This document shows, one piece after another, positions 5,752 to 59,900 of a DNA stretch of 64,000 nt; positions within the stretch are counted from its first letter, which is position 1; every line of letters starts with the position of its first letter. The notes under the pieces are model-generated. The model saw only the letters and a list, made by a program, of their open reading frames with translations, was not told the origin of the DNA and searched no databases. The DNA is from Maylandia zebra (lineage: Eukaryota; Chordata; Actinopteri; Cichliformes; Cichlidae): NCBI RefSeq assembly GCF_041146795.1, contig NC_135187.1, forward strand, positions 1,521,501-1,585,500, written 5' to 3'. The position numbers and the translations under genes were made by a program.

Positions 5752-5770
5752 CTTCACTCTGTAATCACCT

Positions 5771-5788: not shown

Positions 5789-5792
5789 ATTT

Positions 5793-27140: not shown

Positions 27141-27661
27141 ATGATCTTGTTCGCGGTGGTGGTCCTTCTGGGGACGGCGCTGACCGTAAACTGCGGTGAG
27201 TTTGCGCTTTTTTACCGACGCTAGCGGAGCGGGTCCAAACCGAAAGTAAAAACGGACTGTGACGTCGCAGAAAAACAAAAGTTCAGACGACGATTTTAGT
27301 TTAATTTATCGGTATTAAACGGAGATTTCTGAGTGTTTCGGTGCCGTGGCGTGACTCTGTGCACCAGGTGTGTGAAAGTGGGAAATAAGAAAGCGCTTTA
27401 ATCCTCCCAGGAGTTTCTCAAGTTCAGCTGCTGCCGCGGGTCTGCTGAGGCCCGAAGAGAAACACTTACAGACACAAATACTGAACATTTTATGGATTTA
27501 AGTTTTTCATTTAAATTCTTGGCTGTGTTTTAAGATCAGACAGTTTCGTATAAACTGCTGAGTTCAAAACCTGAAAACTTCAAAGCTGACTGAAGATCAC
27601 GGCTGTAAACTGTGTGTGTGTGTGTGTGAGTGTGTGAGTGTGAGTGTGTGTGTGAGTGTGA

Positions 27662-27730
<69 letters not shown>

Positions 27731-27747
27731 TGTGTGTGTGTGTGAGT

Positions 27748-27793
<46 letters not shown>

Positions 27794-30700
27794 ACCAGTG
27801 CGATAATACAGGTTAGAGTCCTCTGGTTTATAGCAGTGGACTTCGTGTTAGCGGTTGTGAATCATGTCCTGACACTCGTCAGTTCTCAGTAAACAGGTAA
27901 GAACAGGTGTGTCGCTGTGAGCTGATGCTGCTGAGCCGGACTGATCGCATCGTTATCATATCTGTGACGTGACGACCAGTCAGAAGCATCTCAGAGTTTA
28001 CTGTGAACAACTTGTTTTTCTGCTTACCTGAGACAGGTGCGAGATCTGAAAATCTTTGATTGAATTAGTAACATTTCCCCACATTCAGTGAACGCACCTG
28101 AGACACTGCAGGGTTTTTTCCCACGCTGACAGAAACACGTCACTCGTGTCTCTTTACACTTCTCTGTCGGTTTGAGGTCAGAGCTGCTGATCAAAGCTGA
28201 AATCAAAGGTATAACTTTTAAATGAAACGGATTACTGCTGTGCTGATGTTGTTTCAGGTCTGTGAGGTGACGTTTTTGACGTTTACACAGGAATGTTACA
28301 ATGATCTCTTTACCAGGAGAACAGCTCATGCTGAGGAAAACTGTTTATTATTGTAACAAGTGATGATTCATTTTATTACATTTATTTATTTTTTACATTT
28401 AGTAATAAAATGTGACAATAATACTGATAGTTTCTCTCAGTCAAGTCTGCCTCACTAGTTTCCTTTGTTCATTATTTTGATAAGTTTTAAATTCAGTTTA
28501 GTTTTTAAAGTTTAAACATATTTTCTTAGAGTTTTTATTACTTTTGATGTTATTGTGGGTGTTATTAATAATCAAAGGAGCTTGCAAAGAAAAGCGTCTG
28601 GACTTCTTTAAGTTACTTGAAGACGTTTCACCTCTCATCCGAGAAGCTTCTTCAGTTCTAAGGTCAAATGGTGGAGAGTCCCAGATATAAACCTAGTGGG
28701 AGTTTCCCCCCACAGAGGGACAAAAGGACCCCTGATGATCCTCTAATCGCCTGAGCCAAGGTGTGAAACTGGGTGTGGGTCCCAATCAGCCAGGGTTTCA
28801 GGTGAGCTCAATGCAGCAGCTTCGGCAATGGAGACGCTGAACATGGTCCATTCGGACTCAATGTCCCCAGCCTCCCTCGGAATGCTGTTGAAGCTCTGCC
28901 AGAGGTGTGCGTTGAAGATCTCGCGGACTGGGGCCTCTGCTAGATGTTCCCAGCACACCCTCACTACGCGTTTAGGTGCACCAGGTCTGTCCAGCGTCCT
29001 CCCCCGCCATCTGATTCAACTCAGGTTGGTGGATTGTGTGATGTAAGAAGATATAAACAGATTGCAGTACCTGCAGCTGACTGATGGTGGCGCACACATT
29101 CTGCTGTGAGTGGACCGAAGCTGGCTCTGCAGTAACCAAACAGAGAGACTAAGAATGATATCTTTAATTTTTTAAATATTTTCAATAGTTTTGTAAGATT
29201 TTCTGTCAGTTTTCTTCAGGTTTAGTTCATTACTGTAACCTGACATAATGTTCTGTGACTGTCACCGGTTAACTTAAACATCCAGACTGGACTCTAGTTC
29301 TTGTTCTGTGTGGAATCATCGTTGTTGTTAGAGCTGTCTCTATTTTCTTTAACAACTGAATGAACAGCGTTTTCATATAGAAAATTTCCGTTCAGCAGAG
29401 AATAATCTAACTTTATTAGATTAGATAAAACTTTATTAATCCTTCCGGTGGGTTCCTCTGAGTAATTCAGTTTCCAGTAGCACCGACAGAAGTTGCACGT
29501 TACAGAGTTGGAATACCAAAACAAGGGGAGTGAGAGAGTATGGAAATAAGCATAAATATAGCATATATACATGTATACACATATGTAAATACAGAACATA
29601 TAATGGGGATAAAGGGGAATACTAGTGAAATATAGTCAATTCAAAATTTATTTCTATAACGTGTATATACGTTTAAAAAAACAACAGTCGACCAAAGTGC
29701 TTCACAATCGGTTAAAAACAAGAGAAAACAATAGAGAAACAAATAGAGATCAATAAGAAGACAGTGAATTAACAATAAAAACATAAAACAGGCCTGAAGG
29801 TGCTCATGCTGAACTCGAATTAAAAGCCAAAGTAAAAAAGTGAGTTTTAAGATGCGATTGAAAAGATTAAATCGACTCTGAAGTACGAATCTCCTGTGGC
29901 AGATTATCCCAGAGTCTGGGTGCTGCTGCGAAGGCCCGATCTCCTCTGTGCTTCCATCGAGACCTTGGTCGTGCTGAGAGCATCTCGATTATCTCAGCGC
30001 TCTTTTGGGGTCATACATGTTGAGGAGTTCGTTTAAATAACTCGGCACCATTTTATTTAAAACTCTGGGCTGAGTGTAGATGTCACACATCTCATTGATG
30101 AGATCTAGACCGCCACAGTCCATTGCACATTTCAACTATTGTGAGTCTATTGCACAGTGATTGTTGCACAGTTGAATATAAAAAACACTGCAGCGTCGTT
30201 GCTCCCGCCCTCCTTCGTCCTCCTGTTTCCCCTCCAGCGAGGAGTTTGTTGGTCCAAGACTTTGAGAGGAGCAACCTGTCACTGAACAGACTCCTCTGGT
30301 TGTTTATGACCACATGCAGAGGATGTCCAGCATTGTCCATAATGTCCAGCAGCTTCTTTCTCCTCTTCTCTGCCACTGTCACCAGAGTGTCCAGCTTCAT
30401 GCCCACCACAGTTAAAAACCAAACCACGTTTGTACCGAAACTCGTAAAACCGCATAAGTGTTTGTAAACGTGAGCTAACTGAAGGCCGAGCGAGAGGAGG
30501 AAGTGTTTTGCTCTGCCTTTAAACATCAGTCAGGTTTGTAGATCAGGTGCAGCGCACTGACGTCTACACATGGCCGAGAACAGAAACTGAAAACAGCTTC
30601 AGCTTTAGGCTGTGTCCCAATCCAGCGACCGCACGCTTCGGCGCACTACGTACGTTGCGTACTACAAGTACGAGAAGTGCGGAAGTAAGAGGCCTGTGAA

Positions 30701-33700
30701 ATGGGACGGTGACAGTGTGTATACAGATGTATCATATATAAAAGACAAATATTGTTCGTTTACTATGTTGGCATTATTACGTTTGGCTAATTTGGCCATT
30801 TAAAATGTACGAGCTGTGATAACTGTGTCTGATAGAATGAAGAGTCGACTGATATATGAAATATTCCTTTATTGGGTGAGAAAATCAGACCATGTCATAA
30901 CTGCTGTAAGTCACACAGAATAGATATCAGAGCCTTAAACAGGCTGACGTCTGCTAAATGGGTCAAACTGGGCAGGAAGTCTACAAACACATAACATCCT
31001 TATAGAATATGATGTAACACTATAGATCAACTTAGCTCAGAATATATAAAGCATATAAACAATTACAGCAATATGATGCAACAAACACAGCAGCTACTGA
31101 TCCAAAATCCTCAAAGCTTCATAGAACTGAAACCAACATTTATTTTAGCTCCATTCTGCTGCTGATACAGACTTTAGGTTTCTGAACATTAAACTTGTTG
31201 CTGCCTTTCATAGTGCGTAACTTGAAGGCCCTGAGTACTCTGAGTACTTTCTCCCACACTGAAAACACTGGGATGATAACATTCTGTGAACATTACCTAA
31301 TAAGACTGATTCAGCACAGACAGTTATGTTAAACTTTCCTAGCAGTCCTTCACAAACAGGGAACAGTCTGTCTATTCTCTCCATCTGTCAGCTGCTGCTG
31401 GCTCTTCCTCCTCCTCTTCCTCACACACTGCTGAGTTTGTCCTGGTGGATCATCAGGGCTGCAAAGCCTCACAGATGATGTGCAGCAGTGGCTCCCTCAG
31501 TCTGTCCTCACTCTGGACACTTGCAGTCGTCACACATGGAAATCAAATGTGTGATAAGCTGCAGGATTCAAACACAAGTGTAACTTATAAACACATGTTC
31601 ATACTTTTATTCCACAATCAGAGAGAAAGAAACAGAGAGAGAGTGCAGGACAGACAGACAGGTGACAGTCTCAGGTGTACACACTGCTACACAACAGCAC
31701 AGAGAAGCAGGATTTAGTGTTTGTGTTATTACGAGTGTAAACAAGAAGAGTTCCAGATGGTGCAGTGGACACATGTGTGACTGCTGTGATTAAAGCATCT
31801 TTCTTTCAGCTTAACGAGTGAACCGTCAGCTCGTTCAAACACACGTTAAAGTGCGTTTGGCTCGACACCACCGAACAGAGGCAGCAATATAACATAGCTC
31901 ACATTAACAGTGCAGTGGATCCTGCTTGTGCCGTGATGTTCAGGAAACCGAGCAGCATCACTGACTTTCAGCTTGTTGTGTTTGTGGATATATGACTGAC
32001 TTTAATTATCCATAAAATCATCAGATTCTCTGTCAGATTAAGGTCGACTCTATATATATATATATGTAGAGCAGGGGTGCTCAATACGTCGATCGCGATC
32101 GACCAGTCGATCGCAAAGGTAGTATTGGTAGATCGCATGGCATTAAAAAAATAGATGCCAGCCTATCATCCATCCCGTCACTTGATTGATACAGGGAAGC
32201 CAGTCAGATGACATCAGATTTTTTCTGACGCTTAGGTCGCTGCGCATGCGCAAACAGCGGCGCGAAGTGTAGTAAAACTGACAAGCTAGTCAGCGAGTTA
32301 ACTCCAATTTTTAGCTCTCGGTTTTTTCTCTTAAACCTGGCCGTCAGCAGCTACTGTCCGGACTATGCATCCCTGGCTGATTCAATTCAGTGCAAGTCAT
32401 CAGAGTAAACTCAGGTAATGACAAAAAATTTACATAGTTAATTGTGTTGTGAAATATTGGATATTGCGGTTATGCATGTATATACATTGTAGATATAAAG
32501 AATCCTCAATATATTTATAAATAAGTATATGTTTTGGATTTTTGTAGTGGGTAGATCATTTTGACTTGGTCATTTTATAAGTAGCTCACATGCGGAAAAA
32601 GTGTGAGCACCCCTGATGTAGAGGCTTTAAAACCAAGTTAGTACAAACGTCACTAACGTCACATGACTTTGCCGACATGTGACCAACAGTAATGTTTTAA
32701 TGTTCTTCATTATCAAACATTTGCACATAAATAAGTGACACAATATTCAGTACTTACTTTTGACAGTTCACTCTTCGGCCGCTCCCTTCTGCCGTATTTT
32801 GCGGCAAAATTATCCACACCCACCGCCGCGCTATGAATTGTGGGATATATGGGACCATAAAGCGTGCACCGGACCACGATTGATATTTGGGGAAATGAAC
32901 TGCGCATTTGGAGTATGCATTTAGTGTACACGTCGGATTGGGACAGCCGTCGCCGCGTCGCCGTGACGTAATAGGTCTCAAAACGTGTACTCCGGAGCGT
33001 GCGGTCGCTGGATTGGGACACAGCCTCTGGCTGAACGTTACAGATGGTCAGTAAGCAGCTGTTGTTACTTTAATTTTAATTATCAGGAAAACAACTTCAA
33101 TGCACGTGTCTGGTCTGCTGCTGCTTCTCAGCTGTCACACATAAATAAATTAATATTGTGTGTTTTCCTACCTGTGGGATTTCAGAAAAACACTCCCTCC
33201 ATTACATCTACACGGCGCTCTCCAAGCCTGTTGGCCTCCCGGGCATCCACGAGTTCACAGCCATGGGTTTGCTGGACGACAGGATGATCGACTACTTTGA
33301 CAGCGAGCATCAGGCAAAGGTTCCCAAACAGGAGTGGATGAGAGAGCGTTTACCTGCTGATTACTGGGATAAAGGCACACAGTCCCGCAAGAGCAAGCAG
33401 CAGTGGTTCAAGGTCAACATCGGCATCCTGATGGAGCGAATGAGACAGAATGACTCAGCCAGTAAGTCTTTGCTTTATTTCAGTGACAAAGCGAGGCCTG
33501 ATTAATCCTGACCCACACATCATGGTGTCCTCTTTCTCTTTCCTTCAGCCCCTCACGTTCTTCAGTGGATGCACGGCTGTGAGGGTCAGACGCAGCCTGA
33601 CGGCACGCTCAGGTTTGTCCGAGGCATGGACATGTACAACTACGATGGAAACGACTTCCTGTCCTTCGATGATAAAAACGGAGTCTGGGTCGCTCCGACT

Positions 33701-36700
33701 CCGGAGGCAGAAGCCACCAAGAGGAAGTGGGACGGCGTCCAGGTGCTGAAAGAGTACACCAAGGGATACCTGGAGAACGAGTGCATCGATTGGCTGAGCA
33801 AGTTTGTGAATTATGGACAGAAGCAGCTCGAACAGAAATGTATGTTTGTCATAAATATTAGTATTATTAGTCCACATGTGCCAAGCCTTACAGAGAGTGT
33901 TGAATATTGTTACGGTTTAAAAAATTAAATCCAAATGACTAAAGTGTCAAACACTTACGTCCTCACGTGCACATCCATTCAGCACCGTCTGGAAAAGATT
34001 AAACTTTTAAAGTCTTAAATGGAACTCCAGACTCTGCCGTTCCAGCCGAATCATAACTGAGTGTAGTTAAAGTATAAATGATAAAGTATAGTTCTGAGAC
34101 AATAGACCCTGATTAGCCAAACGGCAGCCATTTGGACATGAAGCAGTCACAAACCCAGGTGTTGACTAAATAGAGCACAGCCTTCATTATTATTAACACC
34201 ACATGTTTAACGACTGCTGTTACAAAGGCAGTGAGCCCCACCGTCTGTTTGTATGCACGATATTCACTGCATGGTGGAAAGTCTTACTGTAACAAAGTAC
34301 TGAAGGTACCAGCTGATTCCATGAGTTAATCAGTGTTCCAGTTACCACATGTGGTGACACAGTTTTCCATTTCCTGCTTCCAGCTCCACCTGAGGTGTTT
34401 GTGTTTGCAAAGAAGGCCAAAGTGGAGACAAACCTCATCCTGACCTGCCTCGCCACAGGCTTCTACCCCAAAGACATCATCGTGAGGATCAGAAGGAACG
34501 GACGTGTTCTGACTGCAGTCGACGGCCTGACGAGCTCAGACGTTCTTCCAAATGACGATGAGACCTTCCAGAGACGAGACCATGTGGAGATTTTGAAGTC
34601 TGACCTGTCAAAGTTCAGCTGTGAAGTCATTCATGAGGCGACTGGTGTGGATGTTACAAAGACTTGGGGTAAGAAACTTTATTTATTGCCTCTGTTGTTG
34701 ATCATAACTCTGTTTCTTCAGTCAGAGCCTGGAGCTCCTCTGTGTCCAGCAGATCTGCATCATTCTGTCCTGATCACAGTCCTGAGGTCAGATCCATGTC
34801 AGTCCATCTAGAACTAAGCTAGCATGTCACATGTAGCCCAGCTCTGCAGCCCTGAAGAAGCAGAGCAGCGATCTCCTCCAGAGCATCACTGAATAGTTCC
34901 AGATATGAACAGTTTCAGTGCCGTCCCCTCTCACTGACCTCCTGTTGCTGCTCCACATCACTGCTGTCAGATCACTGACTCCATCATGACTGTGGCTTCA
35001 AATCTACATCTCAGTAACAAACAGCAGCAAATAACTGACAGTGACCTCAACCTGAAGCTTGTGTCTGTGTTTCAGAGAACGGTGACCCTCCGGAGGAACC
35101 TGGATGTGGAGCTCTGATCGCTGGTGCAGTGGGAGGAGTCTTGGCTCTGGTTGCTCTTGTTGCTGTAGCTGTGGGTCTGATCTTGTATCTTAGTAAGTCC
35201 AGTGTGCTGTTGTGTGTAATTATTGCTGAGTGGAGCTAAAATGTTTGTCTTTGTATCCTGTAAAAATGAAACTGTCCTGGTCTCAGACAGTGATGACATG
35301 GAGCTGTTACTGATCATCACATTTGAAACACATGAAGAAAATCATTGAAATGAATGTAAGAAATGTTGAATATCAGCTGCTCCAGTCTGTCAGCCTTCAA
35401 ACACTTCACTTAGTATTCTATTAGGACTCCATGAGGGGGTCAAAGGTCACAGTCATGTGACATGATGTCAGACTTTCCTGTCTGCAGCTTCTGATCCAAT
35501 AACTTTGAGCCCTCTGGGACATAAATGTAGTTTTTCTGTGCAGAACAGAAATGATTGATGTTTGCTGATAGTGTGCAGCTCGTTTCCTCCACCGTCTCCA
35601 CTCAGACACATCTGCATGTAGAGCTGAAACTTTTCAACAACAGTTAGTCTGGATCACAGTAAACTGTAGGATTACACTTCAGCATGTGAGTCATTCACAC
35701 TGCATGTTAATGAACACGCTGCTGACTGAGGCCTGATGATGATATCAGAGTTGAGCTGCTTCACACATGTAGAACAAACCACTGAGTTCATCCATCATCA
35801 CTGACAGTCTGTGTTACGTCTGTTTACAGGACGCAGACGTGGAGCCAACGACAACAAAGGTAACATCTTTATTTTGCTGTCTTATAAAGTTTGATGCTCA
35901 GAGACTCGAGTCAGTCTGAGCCCATCCTTTAACACCTTTAACAGATTAGTATTGGTTCAGTGTAGCACAGAGGAGGTGAACAGGCAAACAGTGGAGGAGA
36001 CAGAAACTTGAAGCATGAGGAGAAAGGTTAGAGCAGCCAGGCTCATGGTTACCTGTGTTCAGTATAAAGCTCCTAATATCTGGATGAGCCTGACAGGTGA
36101 AACATGGCTGCTGTCAGGTGTGTGCAGAGGTTCCTCTCTGTGACAGCTGCTCAGTTTCACTGACACTTTACATCTTTATGAAACAAACAGAAGAAAAAGT
36201 CAGACGTACTTTTGACTTTCAGTTTCTCTGTGGAGTCACTGCTCTTTAACATTTGTGACTTTTTATAAGAACACAGATAAAAAGAATCAAACATGAAGCA
36301 CTGACTGAATTAAAATGTGTCGTTTTGTCTTTCTATCATTTGTATTTATCAGCTGGAATAAAGACTATTTATGCTCCTGTGTCAGGTAAGCTCTTTATTT
36401 CTCTGCTCTGGATGTTGTTAAATGTCAATGTTTCTGATATTTAAAGTGTTTATGTGGTAATAATATTTATACAGCAGCAGCTGAAAACCTTAAAGCTGAT
36501 TTTAACCTGTGTGTGTGTGTGTGCGTGTGCGTGTGTGTGTGTAGTTGGTAATGGCGTTGCAAGCACACCTCTGATAAATGGTAGGTGCCCCTCCCACCCT
36601 ACAAAGATTTATACAAAATAGTTTATTGAAGTTAATATTAATATTTTGTGTGTGTGTGTGTGTGTAGTTGCTCCTGTGCCTGCAGCTTCCAGCAGTGGTA

Positions 36701-37940
36701 CGTGTTTCCTTCTCCTTCCTCAGACACACATAACAGTTTATTTTAAGGCCCAGTAGATTGTAGGAGATGTTCTTCATATTCTGTGTGTTTTATGTGGAAC
36801 GGTGCCTCTTTTATATCAGTCGTTCTCCATCTGTGGGGCACAGAGTGGGATGTAGAGGACCAGTGAAACAAATTTCTATGAGAGTCATTGTTGCATTAAA
36901 ATGAAACTTTGATAACTTTTTATTGATAATGGTGAATAAAAATTGTGTGACGTGGATGTTTTTACTTTCTGAATTGGAACAAAAAGGTTTTTAGGAACGT
37001 CGACTCCTTTCCTGCAGGCTTTCCTCCACGTTCCTTTGATGTGAGGTGTTCAAGAACACTGGGGAATTCCCACGTTTATCTTTAAATTAAGACTACAAAT
37101 ATAACCCGGTTAGAGAAACTGCAGTAATCAATGAAAAGAACGACCCTCACATCAGAACGATCACCAGCATCACATCAGTGTGTTGCTAAAGTTTGCTGTT
37201 TCCTTCATGTAGCTCACAATGTATGTTGTCTTTACAGGAAGTGTAGCAGTTACTGTAGATAAGAAGGCTGATGCTAAAGATGGGAAGGATGGGGAAACCG
37301 AACGTCTCACAGACAGTGAGAGTAAGTCTCCCTCAGCTAACATGCTGCTCTGTGTTGTATAATATGAGTCACATTATTCTGTACTGTGGTATTGACTGAT
37401 ACATTTTAAGCTCATGTTGCAGCTGATTACTTTTTTCCTCCTTCAGAGTCCCTTGACAAAGTGTCTAACTCCAGCAACGCTGACTCTGGTGTCTCTTGTA
37501 AGTGTCTCTGATGCACTTCAGATTTACACTTTAACACAGGATAAACGGTAACTGGTCTGTATTTGTACAGCGCTTTACTAGTCCCTAAGGACCCCAAAGC
37601 GCTTTACACACACATTCACACACTGGTGATGGCAGCTACATTGTAGCCACAGCCAGTTTTTATTGTATCACAACCTTTGTTCACACTCAGCTGATGTCAG
37701 TATGAAGCTCAGGTGACGACGATGCTTCCCCTTTCAGTTTCTCTGTTCCCTTTCAAACTTTAGAGACTTTATTTGAAAGAAGACACTAGTGTGAGTGTAA
37801 ATAAGAGCAGTGAGCTGTAAGAGTTTAAGTTGGTGCATCTCTCACTGAGAACCTGCTGTTACTCTACATGTAAAATAATACTGTTGCTCCTCTCTGCAGC
37901 TGATTCTGACAAACAAGGTCAGGCCCAGGAGTCATCCTGA
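27141..37940 (+). CDS. MHC class I heavy chain, Z-lineage-like (locus 3), complete, long tail with TIYAPV
   Basis: Twelve coding exons: leader 27141-27195 ([18 protein letters not shown]), alpha1 33186-33461, alpha2 33549-33839, alpha3 34384-34668, membrane 35076-35192, then seven tail exons 35830-35859, 36353-36385, 36545-36580, 36668-36697, 37238-37321, 37447-37497, 37900-37940. All junctions are GT/AG and phase 1; the total is 1329 nt, 442 aa plus TGA, which supports the model. The groove keeps Y7, Y59, R84, T143, K146, W147, Y159 with F at 171, and the sequon NDS. The membrane span is about residues 315-341, followed by RRRR. The tail has T356-I-Y-A-P-V361, matching the switch motif TxYxxV/I, and DSGVSS (425-430) formed across the last splice. 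AATAAA near 38022 may end the transcript. A type I surface receptor expected to bind peptide with beta2-microglobulin. Confidence 0.88.
27613..27790. repeat. (GT)n microsatellite with GAGT interruptions, about 178 bp
   Basis: In intron 1 of locus 3, about 420 bp after the leader exon. Confidence 0.95.
28571..28740. repeat. Dispersed fish repeat fragment
   Basis: The block AAGCGTCTGGACTTCTTTAA, GAAGACGTTTCACCTCTCAT, GAAGCTTCTTCAGTTCT is a common fish repeat often seen at the edges of retroelements (possibly Penelope-like). A short related piece (CAAAGGAGCTTGCAAAGAAA) is at 53245-53264. Confidence 0.5.
28743..28964 (-). mobile_element. LINE ORF2 linker fragment
   Basis: The minus strand reads [20 protein letters not shown] and [15 protein letters not shown], which resembles the stretch between endonuclease and reverse transcriptase in fish LINEs. 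It is short and truncated. Confidence 0.5.
29400..30530 (-). repeat. Cluster of LINE 3'-end fragments
   Basis: At least two tail types are visible: AGATAAAACTTTATTAATCC at 29420-29439, and AATTTATTTCTATAACGTGT with CAAAGTGCTTCACAATCGGT at 29646-29712. The stretch 30200-30450 (AGTTTGTTGGTCCAAGACTT, AATGTCCAGCAGCTTCTTTC) resembles the antisense end of a LINE ORF2. The pieces lie in intron 1 of locus 3. Confidence 0.5.
30607..33026. mobile_element. DNA-transposon-like element with long TIRs
   Basis: Both ends carry AGGCTGTGTCCCAATCCAGC followed by GACCGCACGC (34 of 35 bases identical, inverted). No transposase frame is seen. A 544-bp hAT element is nested at 32072-32615. A partial relative lies at 49402-49535, and part of the interior lies inverted at 22048-22348. 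No clear target-site duplication is visible, so the superfamily is open. The right end stops 160 bp before the alpha1 exon of locus 3. Confidence 0.7.
32072..32615. mobile_element. hAT-type MITE (544 bp) with perfect 8-bp TSD
   Basis: The ends CAGGGGTGCTCA and TGAGCACCCCTG are inverted repeats, flanked by ATGTAGAG at 32064-32071 and 32616-32623. The sequence next to the left end (GTCGATCGCGATCGACC) is palindromic. It is nested in the larger TIR element. Confidence 0.85.
37545..37658 (-). repeat. Truncated SINE tail
   Basis: GTATTTGTACAGCGCTTTAC through ACTGGTGATGGCAGCTAC and ATTGTAGCCACAGCC matches 11465-11560. It lies in the last intron of locus 3. Confidence 0.65.
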
Positions 37941-43230: not shown

Positions 43231-46200
43231 ATGATCCTCGTGGTGGTTCTGGTCCTCGCGGGGACAGGACTGCGCGTGGACGGCGGTGAGTGACCGTCCT
43301 GCAGAAGGCTTAAAAGTGAAAGTAAAGAGTGACGCACATTTCAGATGATCGATTCTAGAGCTTTAACCCTGCTGCACAGGCCTGACATCTCAAAACACAG
43401 GAGGAAATAGTTTTCACGAGATGTTCCGTGTCTGTAACTGTCCCCACGGACCGAGAGAAAACTCCGTGTTAGTCCATCCTGAGATGACCGAGTGCTGCTT
43501 CTAATTTCCACAAGTCTTTACTAACACTGATGTTAGTGCGTTATTTGTCACACTTACCGTGGAACATATATATACTGGAATACTGGGTATAAAAGTCTGG
43601 GCTAAGTCTTCTGTTAGAAGGACTGCAGCAGTCCAGGAGGTTAACTTTCTTTCATTAAGATTGTTTCCATCAAAGTGTTTGCCAGGCTTAATCCAAATTC
43701 AGTGCAGCCATACTTGAACTTATTGTTGTATAGTGCACAGTATGTGTGACTCTGAGCATGGTTTTCTGGAAACAGAAACAGGTAATTCTACAATGAGTAG
43801 AGTCATAGATAACTAGGAAAACAATCACAACATATCATCTATTAACACAAGCAATATCTCATAATGTCCACAAGGGGTCACTGTAGAAGATAAATTGGCC
43901 AAACCGCATGTCTTACAAGTTGTTACTAGTAAGGCACAAATATGGCAAACTAGCAACAGTTCAACTAAACAATAGAAAAGTCCTTCATTCCTAATACAGC
44001 TGGATGGTCACTGCTACTAACTTAGTACTGAATAATCCAACAACTGAGGCATAATTTTAACATGCACTGGTTAAGTATAACCAGTATCATGCCAATTAAC
44101 CGACCAAAAGAAATAACACTTCGAGGTTCGTTAACGCACAACTTGATCACACAAAACTGTGTTACCACTGCAGAGCTCAGCAGCAGCTCCTTTAGTCATC
44201 CCCACTCTGGTACTGAGCACACGGCCTCTGATGCACTTGTTTCCTTTGGTTCACTTGCTGAAATTCCACTTGTGTGTAAATGATCAGTTTCAGTTTGTTC
44301 TTCTCTCCTGGTCTCGTGTTAGCATTAGCACTTATCAACAGGTCAGCACCACTGGATTAAAATGCTCTTTACTCACCTGTTGCCATCTTCAACCTGGTGT
44401 CAGAGCTCTGCTGATGCTGTTTTAGTATCCAGGCACATTCTTTAGGTGGGATTTTAGATTAGCTGTAGTCTGTCCACAGACTTTTGTCTTTGTGTCTACA
44501 TTTTTAAGTATGTCACTAAAATCTTTACACAACAGAAACATGACATTTTTGGTCAGCATACAAACAGAGATCTTTACTCATGTATGAATCCCAACCTTAT
44601 CATTGGGGAGGGGTTTGTACCTCAAGGACTCATGTTTTCCACAGCAGTGGACCATGATGCCTCCGTCAGGACAGAGTTGGGAGGCTCAGGCCTTGGGGAG
44701 GGGCTCATCAATGAGGGTCTTTGGCCTTGATTGTCATGGGCCAGCCCTCCTGCCATCCATGCAGGGGACTGTAGGAGGAGGACTTGACAGTCACAAATTT
44801 GTGCTTGTGTCATGGTCATCCTCTCTGTGGTGGGGAAGAGCTGGAGCTAAAGCATGAAGCTGAGACACAGATACAGGCTCACCTCAGAGTGCAGCTTGTG
44901 TTCTGGAAACGAGAAAAGAAGCAAGAACAGAAGAACGATGGGTCGGGTCTCAGAACGGTCACATTCAACAATCCTAGTTTTTCCAAGAAAAGAACAAGTT
45001 CATCAACTGATTGTTTATCAGGGACTGACTAAAAATACCAAAGAGCAAAGCTTCCTGATTCATAGTGGATGTAAATATTCAGATGGTTTTTCTCAGCTGG
45101 CTGGAATAAAAACATTTCCTCCTGTGTGACTTTCAGACACTCACTCCCTCCATTACATCTACACGGCGCTCTCCAAACCTGTCGGCCTCCCGGGCATCCA
45201 CCAGTTCACAGCCATGGGTTTGCTGGACGGCAGGATGATCGACTACTTTGACAGCGAGAATCAGGTGAAAGTTCCCAGACAGGAGTGGATGAGAGAGCGT
45301 TTACCTGCTGATTACTGGGATAGAGGCACACAGTCCCGCAAGAGCAAGCAGCAGTGGTTCAAGGTCAACATCAACATCCTGATGGAGCGAATGAGGCAGA
45401 ATGACTCAGGTCAGACCCTCGAAAGCTGAAGGACCTGCATGACATCAACAAAATAACATTTTAATTGAAAAATGCTTCCATTTGAGATCAGGTTCCTCAG
45501 GTCAGGAGCAAGTTGTTCCTGCTTCCTCATCTCGTCTCCTCTGAATCTTCATTTCCTTGTCCTTTGTTTGTTCTTCCTTTATTTCACCCTCCTGCTTCCA
45601 GACCTCCACGTTCTTCAGTGGATGCACGGCTGTGAGGGTGAGACGCAGCCTGACGGCACGCTCAGGTTTGTCCGAGGCGTGGACATGTACGCCTACGATG
45701 GAGACGACTTCCTGTCCTTCGATGATAAAAGCGGAGTCTGGGTCGCTCCGATTCCGGAGGCACAACCCACCAAGAGGAAGTGGGACGAAGTCAAGGTGCT
45801 GAATGACTACACCAAGGGATACCTGGAGAACGAGTGCATCGATTGGCTGAGCAAGTTCTTGAATTATGAACAACAGCAGCCACGAAACACCTGTATGTAT
45901 GACATCTAGTTTCTGTATTTTGATATTTATTCTTATTAGACTTCATAGAGGAGGCTTTGTGTGTGATTATGGTTCAATAACATTCAGAAATCCAAGAACC
46001 TTCAGTTAAACTTCCAACATTTCTAAGTTCAGGTCAAATAAATGTAAAAAGCTTAAAGTTTCCTGTGAGTTAAATGTTTCCTCCTTTATTTGGACACAAC
46101 AGTCTCATGATGGCAGCAGTAATGCAGATTTACAGCTCAATATAAATGAAAGAACACACGACTACCTATCAGCAAAATCAGTAAGCAGTCATAAACTGCC

Positions 46201-47357
46201 TCTTCACTTTTGATCTTCAAACTGTTGTTGTACTACCTCGCTGCGCCCTCCCCCCACACGGCAGGTGTTCACCTACAGAAACACCTGGTGGATAAAAAAG
46301 TCACAGAGACGAGATAAACGTGCTCAGTGACGTTCAGCTCCAGATGTGAGACTACAGATGTGAAAGCATTTTGTGTGGAAGCCACAAACTAAACGTCAGC
46401 GTGCGACACGTCTGCCACAGCTGTGCTCAGTCGTTAGGGGTGATCAAAGAAACCTGAATGGTTCCTGTTTGCAGTGATAGCTGAGGAGATACACACCTCT
46501 TTACATTTCCTCCTCCAGCTCCACCCGAGGTGTCCCTGTATGCAAAGACCTCCAGAGTGGATGCAGACGTGGTGCTGACCTGCCTCGCCACAGGCTTCTA
46601 CCCAGCAGACGTCGTCCTGAGGATGAAAAAGAATGAGAGCGTCCTGACTGCAGACGACGGCCTGATCAGCTCAGGAGTTCTTCCCAATGAAGACCACACC
46701 TTCCAGAGGAGAGACCGTGTGGAGGTTTTAAGGTCTGACCTGTCTGCGTTCAGCTGTGAAGTCGTTCATGAGGCATCTGCTGTGAGCGTCACCAGAGTTT
46801 GGGGTGAGAAACTTTATTTTATTTTTGTTTTTTTGGTTTGTCACAGTTTTCTTCTTTGTTTAAAGTTGTGTTGGAGAGCAGCAGATCCCTGCAGCGTTAG
46901 TTTTCTGACCACAGTCACTTTTCTGTTCCGGCCAATGTTTGAACTCAGAGTCAGTTACTGAACTGAATTTGAGTGGATGAATCCAGAGTTAGGTCCACAG
47001 TGTGGAGAGTTTCCTGTGTGCACGTCTACTGTGGATCATCTGTCAGTCTGCTACAGGGTCTCTGCCGGCTCCTTTAGATTTTCTCTGGAAAAGTCAAACC
47101 TGAACTCTAAACAGGAAATACTTTTCCTGAACATTGGCTTAAAAATTTACTGGTTGTGCAGCAATTTTTTTTTTAAAGTTTTTCAAGTTTGTGTGTTTTC
47201 AACTGTGCAGTGATGCGTAAATATGAAAGCCATGTTAATTATTTTTATCATGATATTGTTAATTTTACATATTGAACTCACAAGTTTTCCTGAATTAATT
47301 TCTTTCCTTCAGACTCTCAAAGCTCCTCTGACTCCGCCTCTGACTCAGGTGTCTCCT
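43231..47357 (+). CDS. MHC class I heavy chain, Z-lineage-like (locus 4), no transmembrane exon
   Basis: Coding exons: leader 43231-43285 ([18 protein letters not shown]), alpha1 45137-45409, alpha2 45602-45892, alpha3 46519-46803, and a tail exon 47313-47357 ([15 protein letters not shown]), all phase 1 with GT/AG junctions. Groove anchors Y7, Y59, R84, T143, K146, W147, Y159, the disulfide cysteines and the sequon NDS are intact; alpha3 adds a sequon NES. The 509-bp intron between alpha3 and the tail exon contains no membrane exon, and no terminal tail exon like that of locus 3 follows. As spliced the product would be soluble, with its stop in unspliced sequence after 47357. Reading on past the alpha3 donor instead gives a hydrophobic stretch ([14 protein letters not shown]). 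It may be a secreted form, an alternatively anchored form, or a decaying gene. Confidence 0.7.
43600..45100. other. Intron 1 of locus 4, unassigned
   Basis: Contains several short open frames (44590-45130) with no recognised domain and no clear mobile-element ends. Its last 40 bp are nearly identical to the matching intron end of locus 5. Confidence 0.4.
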
Positions 47358-47449
47358 GTAAGTATCGTTTATTAATAGTTGCACAGGATCAAACTTTGGG
47401 TGTTAAAAGTCATCCTGGAGAAACTCATAAACAGTTTTAATGAAAAATA

Positions 47450-49839: not shown

Positions 49840-52800
49840 TCAGAATCAGAATCAGAAAGGGTTTTATTGCCAAATGTTGAGCAGGTTTACAACATTAGGA
49901 AATTGCTGCGGTGCTTCAGTGCAAACATACTGTCATAAATTGCGCTTAAATAGACAAGAAAAAATAAAAGTAAGAATAAGAATTAAAAGTGCTACGTAGA
50001 AAGATATATACATGATATATACATGATATATACATGAGTGCAGGTGGTGATCAGTGCAAACATGGAATGATGCAGTGAACACAGCATAGGGTCATGTGTT
50101 AGTGGTGGGAACAGTCATATGGTTATTGTTCATGTGTCCAACAGCAGAGGGGAAGAAACTGTTCTTATGGCGAGAGGTTTTGGTGCGAATGGACCGGAGC
50201 CTCCTGCCTGAGGGGAGCAGGTCAAACAGACTGTGTCCAGGGTGGGAAGGGTCAGCTGAGATCCGAGCTGCACGCCCCAGTGTCCTGGAGGTGTACAGGT
50301 CCTGCAGAGATGGGAGTCTGCAGCCAATCACCTTCTCAGCAGAGCGCACAACACGCTGCAGTCTCTGTTTGTCCCTGATAGTGGCTCCAGCGTACCACAC
50401 GGTGATGGAGGAGGTGAGGATGGACTCGATGATTGCGGTGTAGAACTGCATCATCGTCCGTGTTGGCAGGTTGAATTTCTTCAGCTGCCTCAGGAAGTAC
50501 ATCCTCTGCTGGGCTTTCTTGATGACGGAGGTGATGGTGGGCTCCCACTTCAGGTCCTGGGTGATGGTGGTACCCAGGAAGCGGAATGAGTCCACAGAGG
50601 TGATGGGGGTGTCAGTCAGGATGATGGGGGGGAGTGGAGCTGTGTGCTTCCTGAAGTCCACAATAATCTCCACTGTCTTCTGGGCATTCAGCACCAGGTT
50701 GTTGTGGCTGCACCAGGACACCAGACGTTCAGCCTCCCTCCTGTAGGCAGACTCATCCCCGTCCGAGATGAGCCCAATAACGGTGGTGTCATCTGCAAAC
50801 TTGATTAGCTTGACAGACTGGTGGGTGGAGGTGCAGCAGTTGGTGTACAGGGAGAAGAGCAGAGGAGAAAGAACACAGCCCTGAGGGGAGCCGGTGCTGA
50901 TGGTCCGGGAGTCCGAGACATTCTTTCCCAGCCTCACGTGCTGCTTCCTGTCCGTCAGGAAGTCAGTGATCCACCGGCAGATGGGATCAGGCACATTCAT
51001 CTGGGAAAGCTTGCCTCGGAGATGGTCTGGAAGGATGGTGTTGAAGGCAGAGCTGAAGTCCACAAACAGGATCCTGGCGTAGGTTCCTGGGGAGTCCAGA
51101 TGCTGCATGATGAAGTGTAGGGCCATGTTGATGGCGTCGTCTACAGACCTGTTGGCTCTATATGCAAACTGCAGGGGGTCCAGGAGGGGGGCCGTGAGGG
51201 TCTTGAGATAGGAGAGAACCAGGCGCTCGAATGACTTCATGACCACAGATGTCAGAGCCACGGGTCTGTAGTCATTTAGTCCAGTGATCCTAGGTTTCTT
51301 GGGGACAGGGATTATGGTGGAGGACTTGAAGCAGGCAGGCACATGACATGCCTGCAGTGAGGAGTTGAAGATGCCAGAAAACACTGGGGCCAGCTCGTTT
51401 GCACAGTGTCTGAGGGTGGCAGGAGACACGCCGTCTGGGCCGGGAGCTTTCCGAGCATTCAGACTCCTAAACTGCTTCCTCACATCTGCTTCATGAATAT
51501 GAAGAGTTGTGGTGGGAGGAGGTGGTGTGAAATCCTCTTTTGTGTGGGGTGAGGAGGGGGGTGTTGCAGGTGAACAGTTTGAAGGTGGTGATGGCTCTAT
51601 GGAGGGGGGAGAGGTGGGGGAATGAGTGTCCAAAGTGTCTCTATTGTTGGGGTCGTTGGAGGTGTGAAGGCTGCCTGATGGCTCGTCAAAACGACAGTAG
51701 AAGTCGTTAAGGGTGTTGGCTAAGAGCAAGTCGTCAGTGGAGTGGGGGGTTTTAGGCTTGTAGTTGGTGATATTCCTAAAACCTTTCCACACAGAGGCCG
51801 AGTCATTCTCTGAGATCTGCTGCTGCATCTTCTCAGAGTGCTGATGTTTAGCAATGTCCACTTCTTTAGTGAACCTGTACTTGGCCTCTCTGTAGCAGTC
51901 CCTGTCTCCGCTTCTGAACGCCTTTCTCTTTTCCAGCCACAGCTTTTTGAGTTTAGGAGTAAACCAGGGTTTGTCATTGTTATAACTCACCCTGGTGCGT
52001 GATGGCACAATGCTGTCCTCACAGAAGTGGATATAGGAGGTGACAGTGTCCGTAAACTCGTCCAAGCTGTTAGAAGCAGCCTTCATTGTGTCCCAGTCTG
52101 TAGACTCCAAACACGTGCGAAGCTCCTCCACAGCCTCGTTGCTCCACAGTTTTTTGGTCCTCACGACAGGTTTGGAGAGCTTCAGCCTCTGTCTGTACGC
52201 GGGGATTAGGTGGATCATGACGTGGTCAGAAAGTCCGAGTGAAGCGCGGGGCACCGCGCGATAGGCCCCGCTGATCGTGCTGTAACAGTGGTCTAATGTC
52301 CTCTCCTCTCTGGTCGGGCATTTAATATACTGCTTGTATTTGGGAAGCTCATGGCTCAGATTGGCTTTGTTAAAGTCCCCAAGAGCAATGATGAGAGAGT
52401 CCGGGAATGTCTGCTCCATGTGCAGTATCTGCTCTGCGAGTGCGCACTGAGCTGCCTGCGCATCCGCGTCTGGCAGGATGTAAACAGCGGCCAGGATGAA
52501 TGAAGCAAACTCCCGCGGAGAATAAAATGGTTTGCAGTGAATAAAAAGGTATTCCAGAGAGGGAGAGCAGTGCTGAGCAATCACTGTCACATCTGTGCAC
52601 CAGCCACTATTAATGTAGAAGCAGAGACCTCCACCTTTGGTCTTACCAGAGAGAGCGGCCTGCCGGTCCGCGCGCAGCAGATGGAAGCCCTCCAGCTTGA
52701 GCGCGCAGTCTGGGATGTTCTCACTGAGCCACGACTCCGTGAAACATAAGACACAGGAGGAGGCAAAGTCTCTGTTCATGCTTCTCATCAGGGCCAGTTC

Positions 52801-53058
52801 GTCTATCTTATTCCCGAGTGAGCGTACATTCGAAAGGAAGATCCCAAGAAGAGCAGTCCGCGTCTCCTCAGACGCACGAGTGCGCCGGCTCGCTTCCCTC
52901 TCTTTCGGCGTCTCACTTTCCTGATCAGAGTCTGCAGTAAATCTGCCGCAGATGCGACAAATATTGGAAATAAATCCACAGGTGTTGTAGTCCTGTAGTT
53001 AAGAAGCTCTTCTCTGGTGTAAGAATATCCAGAGGAGTGCCCGGACACAAAAGAAATG

Positions 53059-53957: not shown

Positions 53958-56900
53958 ATGCTGATTATCGCAGTTCTTATCCTTTTGGGGACAGGGCTGA
54001 GGGGGAAATGCGGTGAGTTTGCGGGGGGTTTTTTTGTTAGTTTTTACAAACGTTCACGAGGTTGTTTAAAATCGAAAGTAACTGTGACTGACGGTGAAAC
54101 ATTTCAAACGACGGTTTTAGTTTAATTAACTGATCTAAGTTTTATTCATTTATTTTTAGTAGCGTAGCATGATTCCATATGTCTGGTGTCGGAGAATATA
54201 TTTTATTTCCTCACTCATACAGTTCACATTTTGCCGGTGTTCTGGGAATTTAGCTAGTCTACCCCGTAAATCGTCCTACCGGTTGTTAATGAGTATGTGC
54301 GCGCATGCGCACAACACAAAAAGGAAAGCTAAGCGCATCAGGTGTTCTGACAAAACGTCCTACCGTAAGTAGTTTATGCACATTTCTGCTGTCACAGAGT
54401 AATTCCAGCACCAATTTAAGTAGGTATGACGGTTTGCCACTTAACTGTGCCCATCAGAGTATGTTTGTAGCTCACATTCATAAAGCCAGGACGGTTTGCC
54501 ACTTCATTTTACCCGTTAAAGTCTGTTTGTAGGTCACATTCACAAAGGTAGCATGGTTTGGCACGTAATTTTACCCGTCAGAGTTTGTTTCTAGGTCTCA
54601 TTAACAAAGGTAAGATGATTTGCCACTGAATTGTAGCTGTAAAATTAAGCTTCTATCTCATATTCACAAAGGTAGGATAATTCACCACTTAATTTTAGCT
54701 GTTGAAGTATGCTTGTAGCTTAAATTCACAAAGGTAGGACGGTTCGCCACTTAATTTCATGTTGTGCGCATGCGTAGAAACAACGGGTAGGATGGTTTGT
54801 CAGGTAGGATGGATGGATTCTGACAAAACGTCCTACTTTGTCAAAACATCCTACCGTAGCGTAAATTAATAGTCATGTCTATCAGTCCGTGCTACCTTAT
54901 CAGAATATACTATCTTACATGGTTTATGCCTCCATCATCGTACATACCTATAGGTAGGACATTCTGATGGCCAAATCACACTGTAAAAACGTGCTTCCTG
55001 CTTGTGTTTATTTAGGCAGGAGGACTAACATTAAATTATAAGGTTTACGCTGTATGCCAGTTTACAGATTTTAGAAGTACTAAATCAAGATTTGAAATAT
55101 GACTTCAATTGAGACTGCAAATTGGAGTATTTTTGCACAAAAAACAAAACGCATGTTAGCTTGAAAAGTTACTAAATTGAAAACAGTTTAAGGAAAACAA
55201 GTATAAACTGTAATAAAGAAGTAAAACATATAATACTAACCCTTTTTTGCACGCACAAGATCAGGGTAGGATCAAGTAATAGGCGTGTACTATTAACACC
55301 GAAAACTTGGCTGTTTTAAATTGTGTGCATGTGCAGTAACAACAAGTAGGACAGCTTGTTAGGTAGAGTGTTTTTTCAGAACACTTCCCAACAGAAACTC
55401 TGCGTTGGGAGCACATGCTGGGCTGTCTCCAAAAAGTTGATTCTGTTCATCTGGACATAGCGTTTTGTGGCTTCTTCAGTCTCAGCTGACTGCAGGTTTC
55501 CCCAATCTTATAAACAGTACATTTGCATAATGATTGAAACCAGCTCACTGAAGGAACAATGCACTGGGAGGTCAGTTCCTTAATCTTAACTATGCAAATT
55601 CTCATGACCATTGATCAATAACCACTGACCAAAACCCACTGATCAAAGACCACTGTTCAATGGCCATGAGTACCATGGGCTGTCCAAACTGCGGACAAAC
55701 AGTATCCCACAATGATTGATGTTTTTAAAGCCATTTTGCATAGAGAGGCGTTTTTTGAAAAAATTATTAATAGCAATTTTAAATATTCTTACACAGTAAA
55801 AAAAAAAAACAAAAAAACTACTACGTAAAATAATTACACCATAAAGATGGTTTGTTTTTCTGTTATTTAGAAGAGGTTGTAGTTTATTTTATTACAAATC
55901 ATATGCAATTTTTTTTTTTTTGGGGGGGGGGGGGGTATAACAAATAGGAGCCTAGCAAAAAAAGTTTGGGAGCCACTGCATTAGCCGATGTTAGCTAACA
56001 GGTAGGGGTGCAACAATACACAAAATTCACAGTTCGGTTCGATACTTTGGTGTCACGGTTCAATATTTTTTTTTGATACAAAAAATGTTCATGCCTTTTT
56101 AATTTGTCATTTATTAAAATTATAAATATACAGTGGGGCAAAAAAGTATTTAGTCAGCCACCGATTGTGCAAGTTCCCCCACCTAAAATGATGACAGAGG
56201 TCAGTAATTTGCACCAGAGGTACACTTCAACTGTGAGAGACAGAATGTGAAAAAAAAATCCATGAATCCACATGGTAGGATTTGTAAAGAATTTATTCGT
56301 AAATCAGGGTGGAAAATAAGTATTTGGTCAATAACAAAAATACAACTCAATACTTTGTAACATAACCTTTGTTGGCAATAACAGAGGTCAAACGTTTACT
56401 ATAGGTCTTTACCAGGTTTGCACACACAGTAGCTGGTATTTTGGCCCATTCCTCCATGCAGATCTTCTCGAGAGCAGTGATGTTTTGGGGCTGTCGCCGA
56501 GCAACACGGACTTTCAACTCCCGCCACAGATTTTCTATGGGGTTGAGGTCTGGAGACTGGCTAGGCCACTCCAGGACTTTCAAATGCTTCTTACGGAGCC
56601 ACTCCTTTGTTGCCCGGGCGGTGTGTTTTGGATCATTGTCATGTTGGAAGACCCAGCCTCGTTTCATCTTCAAAGTTCTCACTGATGGAAGGAGGTTTTG
56701 GCTCAAAATCTCACGATACATGGCCCCATTCATTCTGTCCTTAACACGGATCAGTCGTCCTGTCCCCTTGGCAGAAAAACAGCCCCATAGCATGATGTTT
56801 CCACCCCCATGCTTCACAGTAGGTATGGTGTTCTTGGGATGCAACTCAGTATTCTTCTTCCTCCAAACACGACGAGTTGAGTTTATACCAAAAAGTTCTA

Positions 56901-59900
56901 CTTTGGTTTCATCTGACCACATGACATTCTCCCAATCCTCTGCTGTATCATCCATGTGCTCTCTGGCAAACTTCAGACGGGCCTGGACATGCACTGGCTT
57001 CAGCAGCGGAACACGTCTGGCACTGCGGGATTTGATTCCCTGCCGTTGTAGTGTGTTACTGATGGTGACCTTTGTTACTTTGGTCCCAGCTCTCTGCAGG
57101 TCATTCACCAGGTCCCCCCGTGTGGTTCTGGGATCTTTGCTCACCGTTCTCATGATCATTTTGACCCCACGGGATGAGATCTTGCGTGGAGCCCCAGATC
57201 GAGGGAGATTATCAGTGGTCTTGTATGTCTTCCATTTTCTGATGATTGCTCCCACAGTTGATTTTTTTCACACCAAGCTGCTTACCTATTGTAGATTCAC
57301 TCTTCCCAGTCTGGTGCAGGTCTACAATACTTTTCCTGGTGTCCTTCGAAAGCTCTTTGGTCTTGGCCATGGCGGAGTTTGGAGTCTGACTGTTTGAGGC
57401 TGTGGACAGGTGTCTTTTATACAGATGATGAGTTCAAACAGGTGCCATTCATACAGGTAACGAGTGGGGGACAGAAAAGCTTCTTACAGAAGACGTTACA
57501 GGTCTGTGAGAGCCAGAGATTTTCCTTGTTTGAGGTGACCAAATACTTATTTTCCACCCTAATTTACGAATAAATTCTTTACAAATCCTACCATGTGGAT
57601 TCATGGATTTTTTTTTTTCACATTCTGTCTCTCACAGTTGAAGTGTACCTCTGGTGCAAATTACTGACCTCTGTCATCATTTTAAGTGGGGGAACTTGCA
57701 CAATCGGTGGCTGACTAAATACTTTTTTGCCCCACTGTATATTTTAACTCAAAAGTACAATTTTTAAATGTAATGTTGCTGAAACAACAAAGTAATAAAA
57801 CTAAATCTATCTGATGGAGAAATCACTCATCTTTGGAAAAGAGAGTTTATTACAGAGAAATGGCTCTTTCCAAAATAAAAGCAATACTATCCGCTTCTTC
57901 TGGGCTATATTCTCAGCAGCATATTAAACATATCAGGTCCCCATAAGGAGAATCCTGTGCTAACGGCTGTCTAAATGACTCGGGTAAAGTTTGTAGTAGA
58001 GATGGACCGATCCGATATTACGTATCGGTATCGGTCCGATACTGACCTAAATTACTGGATCGGATATCGGAGAAAAATAAAAAATGTAATCCGATCCATT
58101 AAATATCACGAAAGCACCTCACAAAACTTGCAACACGCCGTAACTCGCCTCAGAACGTCAGCATGTCGGAGCAGTATGCATCACGTGATAGAGCGGCTGT
58201 GGCATGCGGGACCTGTCGGTGGTCTGGATAGCATGTGGAGCTTCGCTAGCAACCTGGCATTTCATCTCCGACAACGTTATCCCAGAGAGAAGTAAAGCAA
58301 GTGTGTAAGTCCATCTCTGAATGTTTGTAAAGCATTCCTGCGTTAAGCTTAACGAGCGATATATGGAGCGACTGCCTCTTCTTGCTGCTACTTCAATCGT
58401 GAAACTGCTTAAATGATCAGCTGATCGGCTTTTCTGTCGCGAGTCTGTCTCTCTTGTTTGTTTTTGGTCCACTTTGCACCAGAAAGAGGAAACCAGCGGC
58501 TGAACAACAGCAGCACGTTTAAGCTTGATCAGCTGCTGTTAGAATTTATTTAATATTACTTTCTACTCGAGGATCTTTTTCTACGTAGCTGACGCTGGTA
58601 ACTGTGCAGGGGCGGATCTAGCAAAGTTTAGCCAGGGGGGCCGATAGGGCATGAACAGGGAAAAGGGGGCACAAAGACATACTTTTCTTTCTTATTCTCA
58701 TTTAAAATGTCGAGCTTTTAATAAATAATTATCTGACACCCAAAGTTTTAATTTGATGCAAAATGAATAGAAGTCAATTACTGTATATAGTAACTGTTAA
58801 GTCTAATATATATACCCTAGTCAGCTATAGTACTTTTTACTTTGGGAAGGTACCATCTGTGCAGTCTGCAATTTTGTTGAAGAAAGATGTTGAATCTATT
58901 TAATATTTCTTGAAAAATAATTGATTTCTGTCCATTTTTTTTCACACTGCATCAAATTAAGGTTGATTACGTCGATTAAGCATCATGAGGTGGAGCGTGA
59001 GGGGTGGTTCCCTATTTTTTATTTATTTATTTTTGTTGTTGCTGGGAGTTGGAACCCTATTAGTTAGGTTGCTTAATATTTACACTAAGTACTCTTTAAA
59101 ATACCAGAATAGGGAGTACCTTAACAAGCTAACTGCGCTAACGCACTAGTTCCCACCAATGTAATTTAGCATTGCGTGGCAAATCCAACATACTGTTTTA
59201 CTTTAGTCCATGACGCGCTTACCTTCAGGGTCATACGTCACATGAAAATCAAAATGGTTCCAAACGCCAGATCTGAATGAGGGTGGGGAGGTCCATGTTG
59301 CAAGGAGAGCTTAGCTTCTGTCTCGCTAGCTTGCGCTGCGCTTAGTGGATCTGCACTCGACAGTGCAGCCTAGGCGGAGTAGTCGAATGCAGATCCACTG
59401 AGCTCTCAACACAGACAGCATCGTCAGAAGAAAAGTTGATAAAATAAATAAAAAAATTGTATTGTTCGATACATATGCGTACCGAACCGAAAGCACTGTA
59501 TCAACGGTTCAATATCGATACGAGTATTGTTGCAGCCCTACTAACAAGTGACAGGATTGATACCTCAGAGGAAAATAAGGACTGTAAAACTAAACATCAG
59601 TGTTAGGGGATCACTGTACAGCTGCAGCAGTGAGTTCATGTTCATGTTCTACTGTCCACTTTAGGAAGTGGCTGTTTGCTGTTTGGCTAAAATCCAGCTG
59701 TTAGCTGTGATGTTCTGTTTGTAAAGCACTTTATAAATGAGGACTTTGGAGGAGAGCTTGTGTGAGTCAGCAGACCTACAAACTGGAGTCTGGGTACTCT
59801 GGCTTCCTCCCACCGTCCAGTTAGTGGATAGTTAGTGAATGGTTGTGTGTCCCTGTGTGTTAGCCCTGTGACAGACTGGCGATCTGTCCAGGATGCACCC

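Follow-up and report, generated by a model that had tools for sequence, protein, structure and literature searches.

Can an MHC class I molecule carry in its cytoplasmic tail a motif that would let it signal into the cell that bears it? This question is raised by a short exon in a window of 64,000 nucleotides of Maylandia zebra DNA (the whole stretch that was analysed; C21:1521501-1585500). The third class I locus of the window, locus 3, is an intact gene on the plus strand (27141-37940) with 12 exons encoding 442 amino acids without an internal stop codon, and all internal junctions of the model are in phase 1. The leader exon (27141..27195) has an ATG, a hydrophobic run, and a phase-1 donor and is identical to the start of an annotated M. 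zebra protein, P0013; a leader candidate near 31.5 kb was dropped in its favour. The alpha-1 exon (33186..33461), the alpha-2 exon (33549..33839), the alpha-3 exon of the C1-set Ig type (34384..34668), and a 117-nt exon for the connecting peptide and the transmembrane segment (35076..35192; hydrophobic span ...VGLILYL) follow in this order. Pfam assigned residues 20-204 to MHC_I (E 3.1e-41) and residues 212-293 to C1-set (E 8.3e-12); with the membrane span, these make up the class I fold. Relative to an HLA-A2 groove, that of locus 3 keeps Y7, Y59, T143, K146, W147, and Y159, while Y84 is changed to R and both Y123 and Y171 to F. Y171F is a Z-lineage substitution within the typical peptide-anchoring residues (PMC4364491), and locus 3 has it together with other anchor residues. 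Judged by its sequence, locus 3 is a Z-lineage MHC class I heavy-chain gene of M. zebra.

The tail is encoded in many pieces. Six exons of 30, 33, 36, 30, 84, and 51 nt lie between the membrane exon and the last coding exon (37900..37940), which contains the stop codon. The first of them (35830..35859; 10 residues) is present in P0013, the second is the tyrosine exon (36353..36385), and the third (36545..36580; 12 residues) is skipped in P0013. For the fourth (36668..36697), P0013 fits an inner acceptor, where an inner AG was read (36686-36697). The fifth (37238..37321), the sixth (37447..37497; 17 residues), and the last coding exon were placed by the model and by comparison with P0013. Since all six lengths are multiples of three and all six exons start in phase 1, each could be skipped without loss of the frame.

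The tyrosine exon reads CTGGAATAAAGACTATTTATGCTCCTGTGTCAG; ...ATTTATCAG lies directly upstream and GTAAGC directly downstream. Its donor (CAG/GTAAGC) agrees with the consensus at 8 of 9 positions and ranks at the top of the 11 donors in locus 3, and 12 of the 16 acceptor positions counted are pyrimidines. P0013, which is named 'F10 alpha chain isoform X2' and lies on the same contig, matches the exon over its 11 residues with 100% identity. Thus, the earlier note, made from the letters of the window alone, was right in seeing here a 33-nt phase-1 exon with good splice sites. Its placing of the tyrosine, Y358, 17 residues past the membrane span also holds if the span ends at L341; counted from the best hydropathy window, Y358 is the 19th residue. 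When the 962-Mb genome was scanned with a degenerate DNA pattern of the motif core, the single match was at this exon, and a backwards control had none. The tyrosine exon is genuine: it adds a module, in frame, to the tail of a class I heavy chain of the Z lineage. A strict scan of 124 kb for splice-flanked T.Y..[VIL] returned four spurious sites and missed this exon because its acceptor lacks a run of four pyrimidines; without gene models, such scans have little value at this cluster. A short-peptide search of solved structures gave no match.

Which known motif does the tyrosine belong to? TIYAPV, as the earlier note had proposed, is an exact fit to the published consensus of the immunoreceptor tyrosine-based switch motif (ITSM) in cytoplasmic tails, TxYxxV/I/L (PMC3958483). 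The same tyrosine forms YAPV, a Yxx-hydrophobic pattern with a bulky hydrophobic residue at +3, and so does YEHI of the nearby locus 5. The YXXA motif of class I exon 6 is absent from locus 3, where the +3 residue is Val, not Ala, and the tail motif of the teleost H lineage, GV(I/L)GS(I/L/V)(I/V)HYP, was not found on reading the locus 3 tail. Apart from Y340, at the edge of the membrane, the tail of the 442-residue model has no second tyrosine, that is, no paired ITSM for a tandem-SH2 protein; pairing is an aid to phosphatase recruitment and does not strictly define an ITSM. The earlier note had also likened TIYAPV to the SLAM motif TIYAQV. A search of open-licence papers for the string TIYAQV together with SLAM found none.

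Is the exon shared by other fishes? A set of 171 homologous proteins was assembled from two whole-protein searches (best 120 of 971 matches and best 120 of 998 matches). A search with the tail only (residues 330-400) returned just five proteins, none of them new, because the tails diverge too fast. Alignment detected a span and a tail in 140 of the 171 proteins, and the 31 others, without a detectable span or tail, were left out. Among the matches listed, TxYxx[VI] occurs in 8 of the 140 tails and TxYxx[VIL] in 9. Such a survey of teleost Z tails had been suggested as a check of the ITSM reading, and its outcome is divided: the cichlid exons agree with that reading, but other copies vary. No tyrosine exists at tail positions 9-60 in 85 of the 140 tails. 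Many predicted fish Z proteins, P0001-P0012 among them, are about 600-770 residues long and seemingly have two class I units per chain; they are either fused models or true tandem molecules.

Six cichlid proteins have a T-x-Y-x-P-V exon. Besides P0013, these are P0014 of Pelmatolapia mariae (GGIQTIYSPVS), P0033 (GGIQTIYSPVT) and P0016 (GGMQTNYVPVP) of Oreochromis niloticus, P0043 of Archocentrus centrarchus (GGIQTIYSPVL), and P0042 (DGIQTIYSPVS), which was taken as a cichlid protein from its likeness to P0043. A second source lists P0016, oddly, under ferret. A. centrarchus is a New World cichlid, and M. zebra is an African one. The columns G, T, Y, P, and V are invariant across the six exons. 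Since the six proteins were first found by the motif itself, which is circular, 132 Z tails were ranked again by the eight exon columns that remain when T, Y, and V are left out. This gave five clear matches, with scores of 33-40 against 20 for the next tail; all five (P0013, P0014, P0033, P0042, and P0043) keep T, Y, and V as TIYxPV. P0016, with TNYVPV, scores 19, which is within the noise, and is a divergent form. The mean pairwise identity among the six proteins is 0.73 for the tyrosine exon, 0.57 for the preceding 30-nt exon, and 0.38 for the membrane span; since the downstream 36-nt and 84-nt exons reach 0.74 and 0.76, on fewer pairs, this contrast is not unique to the tyrosine exon. P0042 has 416 residues on a contig of 1,523 nt, which is too short for introns, as the M. 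zebra gene spans about 4.8 kb from alpha-1 to the stop codon. I therefore infer that P0042 represents a transcript.

Other cichlid proteins depart from this pattern. Four have a tyrosine at a like position without the motif: LPLAVYTTT in P0001 of Simochromis and P0055 of O. niloticus, and KPVYEHI in P0054 of Neolamprologus and P0073 of M. zebra. In P0023 (O. niloticus) and P0030 (O. aureus), the flanks align on both sides and the tyrosine exon is absent. P0019, P0021, and the Haplochromis protein P0034 read RRRR[G/R]ANDN[K/Q] and then continue with a different sequence. These five proteins without the exon may be splice forms, products of other genes, or incomplete models. P0019 was considered as a splice form of locus 3 and was rejected; its tail after GANDNK has no good match in the 124-kb region, which makes another gene or species likelier.

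Outside the cichlids, the tail tyrosine usually has a different residue at -2 or +3. Like-placed tyrosines were found in two Chaetodon proteins (QKPIYIGAF in P0086 and PKPIYTGFP in P0088), in Plectropomus (IKPIYSGPP in P0091), and in Girardinichthys (IKTVYGAPL in P0101). K-[P/T]-[I/V]-Y recurs among Z tails, with variation at Thr(-2) and at the +3 residue. TxYxx[VIL] tails separate from the cichlid ones occur in Sebastes umbrosus (RTGYSAV in P0162) and in the wrasse Notolabrus celidotus (STQYQPL in P0097). P0168, a Z-like fish protein on a contig of 2,200 nt, has the tail sequence HTVYEKV, a second strong ITSM-like match beyond the named cichlids.

Could such a number of matches arise by composition? 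A shuffle test was limited to tails of 30 to 160 residues, which excluded 34 of the 140; dereplication of the other 106 left 80. TxYxx[VIL] occurs in six of the 80 tails, three of them cichlid, that is, in four lineages, and shuffling within tails gave a mean of 0.55. At least four matching tails were seen in 0.12% of the shuffles and at least three in 1.5%, for a motif that had been chosen beforehand by sight and with phylogeny ignored. The excess is only suggestive. The same 80 tails contain 57 tyrosines, a count that takes in the cichlids and some gene models seemingly reading into introns; the +3 residue is V, I, L, M, or F in 20 cases (9.2 expected from composition), the -2 residue is T in 10 (3.9 expected), and the -1 residue is I or V in 17 (4.9 expected).

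Do the neighbouring copies carry a similar signal? Locus 1, on the minus strand, has no tail tyrosine on reading, in agreement with the earlier note. Locus 2, near 22 kb, is a fragment with alpha-3 and membrane parts, and no tail-tyrosine exon was seen in it. Locus 4 (45-47 kb) could be followed from alpha-3 to a 15-residue exon, with no membrane exon seen. At locus 5, a 39-nt exon with GPKPVYEHIPLIP lies just beyond the window (L009 2203-2241) and encodes the parallel PKPVYEHIP, found also in P0073. The alpha-2 identity to locus 1 is 89% for locus 3, 76% for locus 4, and 88% for locus 5. Thus, the tail signals differ between copies whose grooves are similar. The claim that these loci share a groove yet differ in signalling stands in so far as the grooves are similar and the tails differ; the signalling itself is a prediction.

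Some further observations were made on the cluster. In locus 4 (45130-47360), the first recognisable exon past alpha-3 is an acidic tail exon. The M. zebra protein P0065 starts with the locus 4 leader and agrees at 99% with the locus 4 alpha-3. The script used for the tails detected no membrane span in P0065, which ends in an additional Ig-like stretch; within the 124 kb examined, the best match to this stretch reaches 44%. Locus 4 and P0065 are possibly a secreted class I form. A sixth Z-like copy (C21:1620958-1621269; L012 5000-5790) has alpha-1 and alpha-2, with 56% alpha-2 identity; no alpha-3 was noticed by eye within the next 4 kb, and this copy is likely a remnant. The Z cluster is located at C21:1.53-1.62 Mb, and at least 44 more class I alpha-2 matches exist about 3.7 Mb away at 5.30-6.58 Mb, presumably the U cluster. 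The linkage of Z and U genes was left open for tilapia and platyfish (PMC4364491). Of six stretches around distant class I matches, another script found membrane-exon candidates in four and resolved no tail exon; this second script is unreliable, as it missed the membrane exon of locus 5, which is readable by eye in L009. Long open reading frames on the minus strand at 773-5913, 50092-52998, and 56347-57267 look, by eye, like a retroelement, a LINE, and a Tc1-type transposase.

An ITSM needs a reader. Two SH2D1A-like exons were found at C2:32814474-32814608 and C2:32816648-32816770, and a middle exon was read by eye in the interval. The joined protein has SAP as its best match among solved structures (1ka6, E 7.7e-42; the 1d1z/1d4t group, E 1.7e-41), and SH2D1B/EAT-2 follows at 1.4e-23. 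Thus, SH2D1A is present in the M. zebra genome with its SH2 reading frame open, and a reader of ITSMs would be available; its binding to Y358 is a prediction. Binding of SH2D1A to a teleost ITSM-bearing receptor is mentioned as an unpublished result in PMC4810170. SAP bound four single CD244 ITSMs at 0.02-1.9 uM; the binding of SHP-2 was weak for single motifs, at 24-29 uM, and reached 2.2 and 10 uM for two tandem pairs (PMC3958483). With its single tail tyrosine, locus 3 would be a poor partner for the tandem SH2 domains of SHP-2, which was set aside as the main partner.

What, then, may the tyrosine do? Given its position, the exon probably descends from the tail-tyrosine exon of class I genes (exon 6 of HLA, with YXXA). 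Y358 is best read as a Yxx-hydrophobic trafficking signal, possibly switched by phosphorylation, a reading held at a little under even confidence. Unphosphorylated Y358-A-P-V would serve to sort the molecule from the cell surface into endosomes, in the manner of the CD1 YXXZ tails. Once phosphorylated, Y358 would no longer do so and could instead become a docking site for SH2 domains, with a sequence suited to SAP-type adaptors; splicing could add or drop the tail signal in frame. The gene structure, the annotated P0013, the same exon in African and New World cichlids, and the parallel PKPVYEHIP of locus 5 all favour trafficking. This reading was placed first because the YAPV of locus 3 and the YEHI of its neighbour, locus 5, both agree with the scheme known from CD1 and HLA. 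Tyr320 of HLA-A and HLA-B, within YXXA, is phosphorylated in open conformers, and its change to Phe lowered the endocytosis of HLA-B27 (PMC13407152, PMC8470049); the CD1 tails YQGV, YQDI, and YQNI sort to endosomes via Yxx-bulky-hydrophobic signals (PMC5002277). The earlier note had named such a signal as its alternative, and it proved at least as well supported as the ITSM. However, a hydrophobic residue at +3 is not universal: it is Pro in P0091 of the coral trout, P0101 of the goodeid, and P0159 of Chelmon, and Thr in the cichlid proteins P0001 and P0055. In Atlantic cod U-lineage class I, moreover, point mutants of putative tail signals (YQPL and EGQKLA) did not change localisation; Y336A had a small effect at most, and the tail stretch 332-343 mattered in cod cells (PMC9905690).

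A pure sorting signal leaves unexplained why Thr(-2) is constant in the cichlid copies including TNYVPV, which an SH2 site would explain, and for this reason a genuine ITSM was kept as a possible, if somewhat unlikely, reading. A Src-family kinase would phosphorylate Y358 on engagement of the molecule, and Y358 would recruit SAP/EAT-2-type adaptors, CSK, or SHIP; as its equally tentative consequence, a peptide-binding class I molecule would signal into its own bearer cell. The exact consensus, the retention of Thr(-2), Tyr, and Val(+3) in all five cichlid exons chosen by other columns, the separate matching tails of Sebastes, Notolabrus, and P0168, and the SH2D1A gene speak for an ITSM, and this part of what the earlier note proposed stands. 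The rest is weakened by the residues around the like-placed tyrosine elsewhere: Thr(-2) is replaced by Pro in locus 5 and in the butterflyfish and coral trout Z genes, by Ala in the two AVYTTT proteins, and TVYGAP of the goodeid fails at +3. The tail tyrosine is single, a kind to which SHP-2 binds weakly in CD244, and is ancestral (YXXA), and the shuffle test followed the sighting of the motif. Could the resemblance be due to chance? An ancestral tail tyrosine may have drifted in cichlids to TIYxPV in a loosely constrained tail without a function of its own, which I consider unlikely. The fast divergence of Z tails, most of them without a tyrosine, the tilapia proteins P0023 and P0030 without the exon, AVYTTT and PVYEHI in other cichlid copies, and the small effect of the cod mutants are all in keeping with drift, but the five invariant columns and the higher identity of the tyrosine exon than of the preceding exon and the span are not, although the downstream exons are equally similar. 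The eight-column ranking and the four non-matching cichlid tails shift the conservation argument in opposite directions, so the standing of the readings was left unchanged. An exon that is rarely or never spliced in, with the model as a prediction artefact, is very improbable: its absence from P0023 and P0030 would agree with this, but it has the top donor of the gene, its coding sequence is conserved across cichlids, the intron-free contig of P0042 carries a homologous exon, and named models of M. zebra and Pelmatolapia mariae include it.

How does the locus 3 tail compare with known systems? It appears to be a version of the tail-tyrosine motif already known from class I. Classical YXXA of HLA-A/B and H-2 is likewise a single tyrosine in a tail exon past the membrane exon, phosphorylatable and linked to endocytosis (PMC13407152, PMC8470049); locus 3 differs in Val(+3), Thr(-2), an extra 30-nt exon upstream, and its Z rather than classical lineage. 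The YXXZ tails of CD1b, CD1c, and CD1d (YQGV in human CD1d) are also Yxx-bulky-hydrophobic signals of class I-like molecules with Val or Ile at +3, but CD1 is a separate family and most of the CD1 tails listed have about 10 residues (PMC5002277). The motif shares Ile(-1) with several CD244 peptides (PMC3958483); unlike the ITSMs of the SLAM family, this putative switch motif is a single copy in an MHC heavy chain and has Pro at +2. The nearest precedent for a signalling-type tail tyrosine in fish class I is the H lineage, likewise non-classical, with a conserved tail tyrosine and a proposed signalling role, although its sequence and lineage are different and its ectodomains are degraded, whereas the groove of locus 3 is intact (PMC6769792). 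In the titles and abstract openings listed by searches of open-licence papers and in passages of Z- and H-lineage papers, no ITSM in a class I tail is described, in line with the earlier note, which knew of none in a Z molecule.

The groove of the Z lineage is almost invariant across most teleosts studied, and its ligand is not established (PMC4364491). A wider proposal, which I hold to be distinctly unlikely, is that a Z heavy chain with this unusually conserved groove and a working ITSM would dock SAP-type adaptors and act as an immunoreceptor for its bearer cell, in cichlids and, perhaps through separate origins, in a rockfish, a wrasse, and one more fish, with splicing and duplication deciding which copies signal. 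A tail signal that some Z genes have and their neighbours lack would give a handle on the question of the Z ligand. Such a signal predicts that Z molecules sample endosomes, as CD1 does, or that they signal into the presenting cell.
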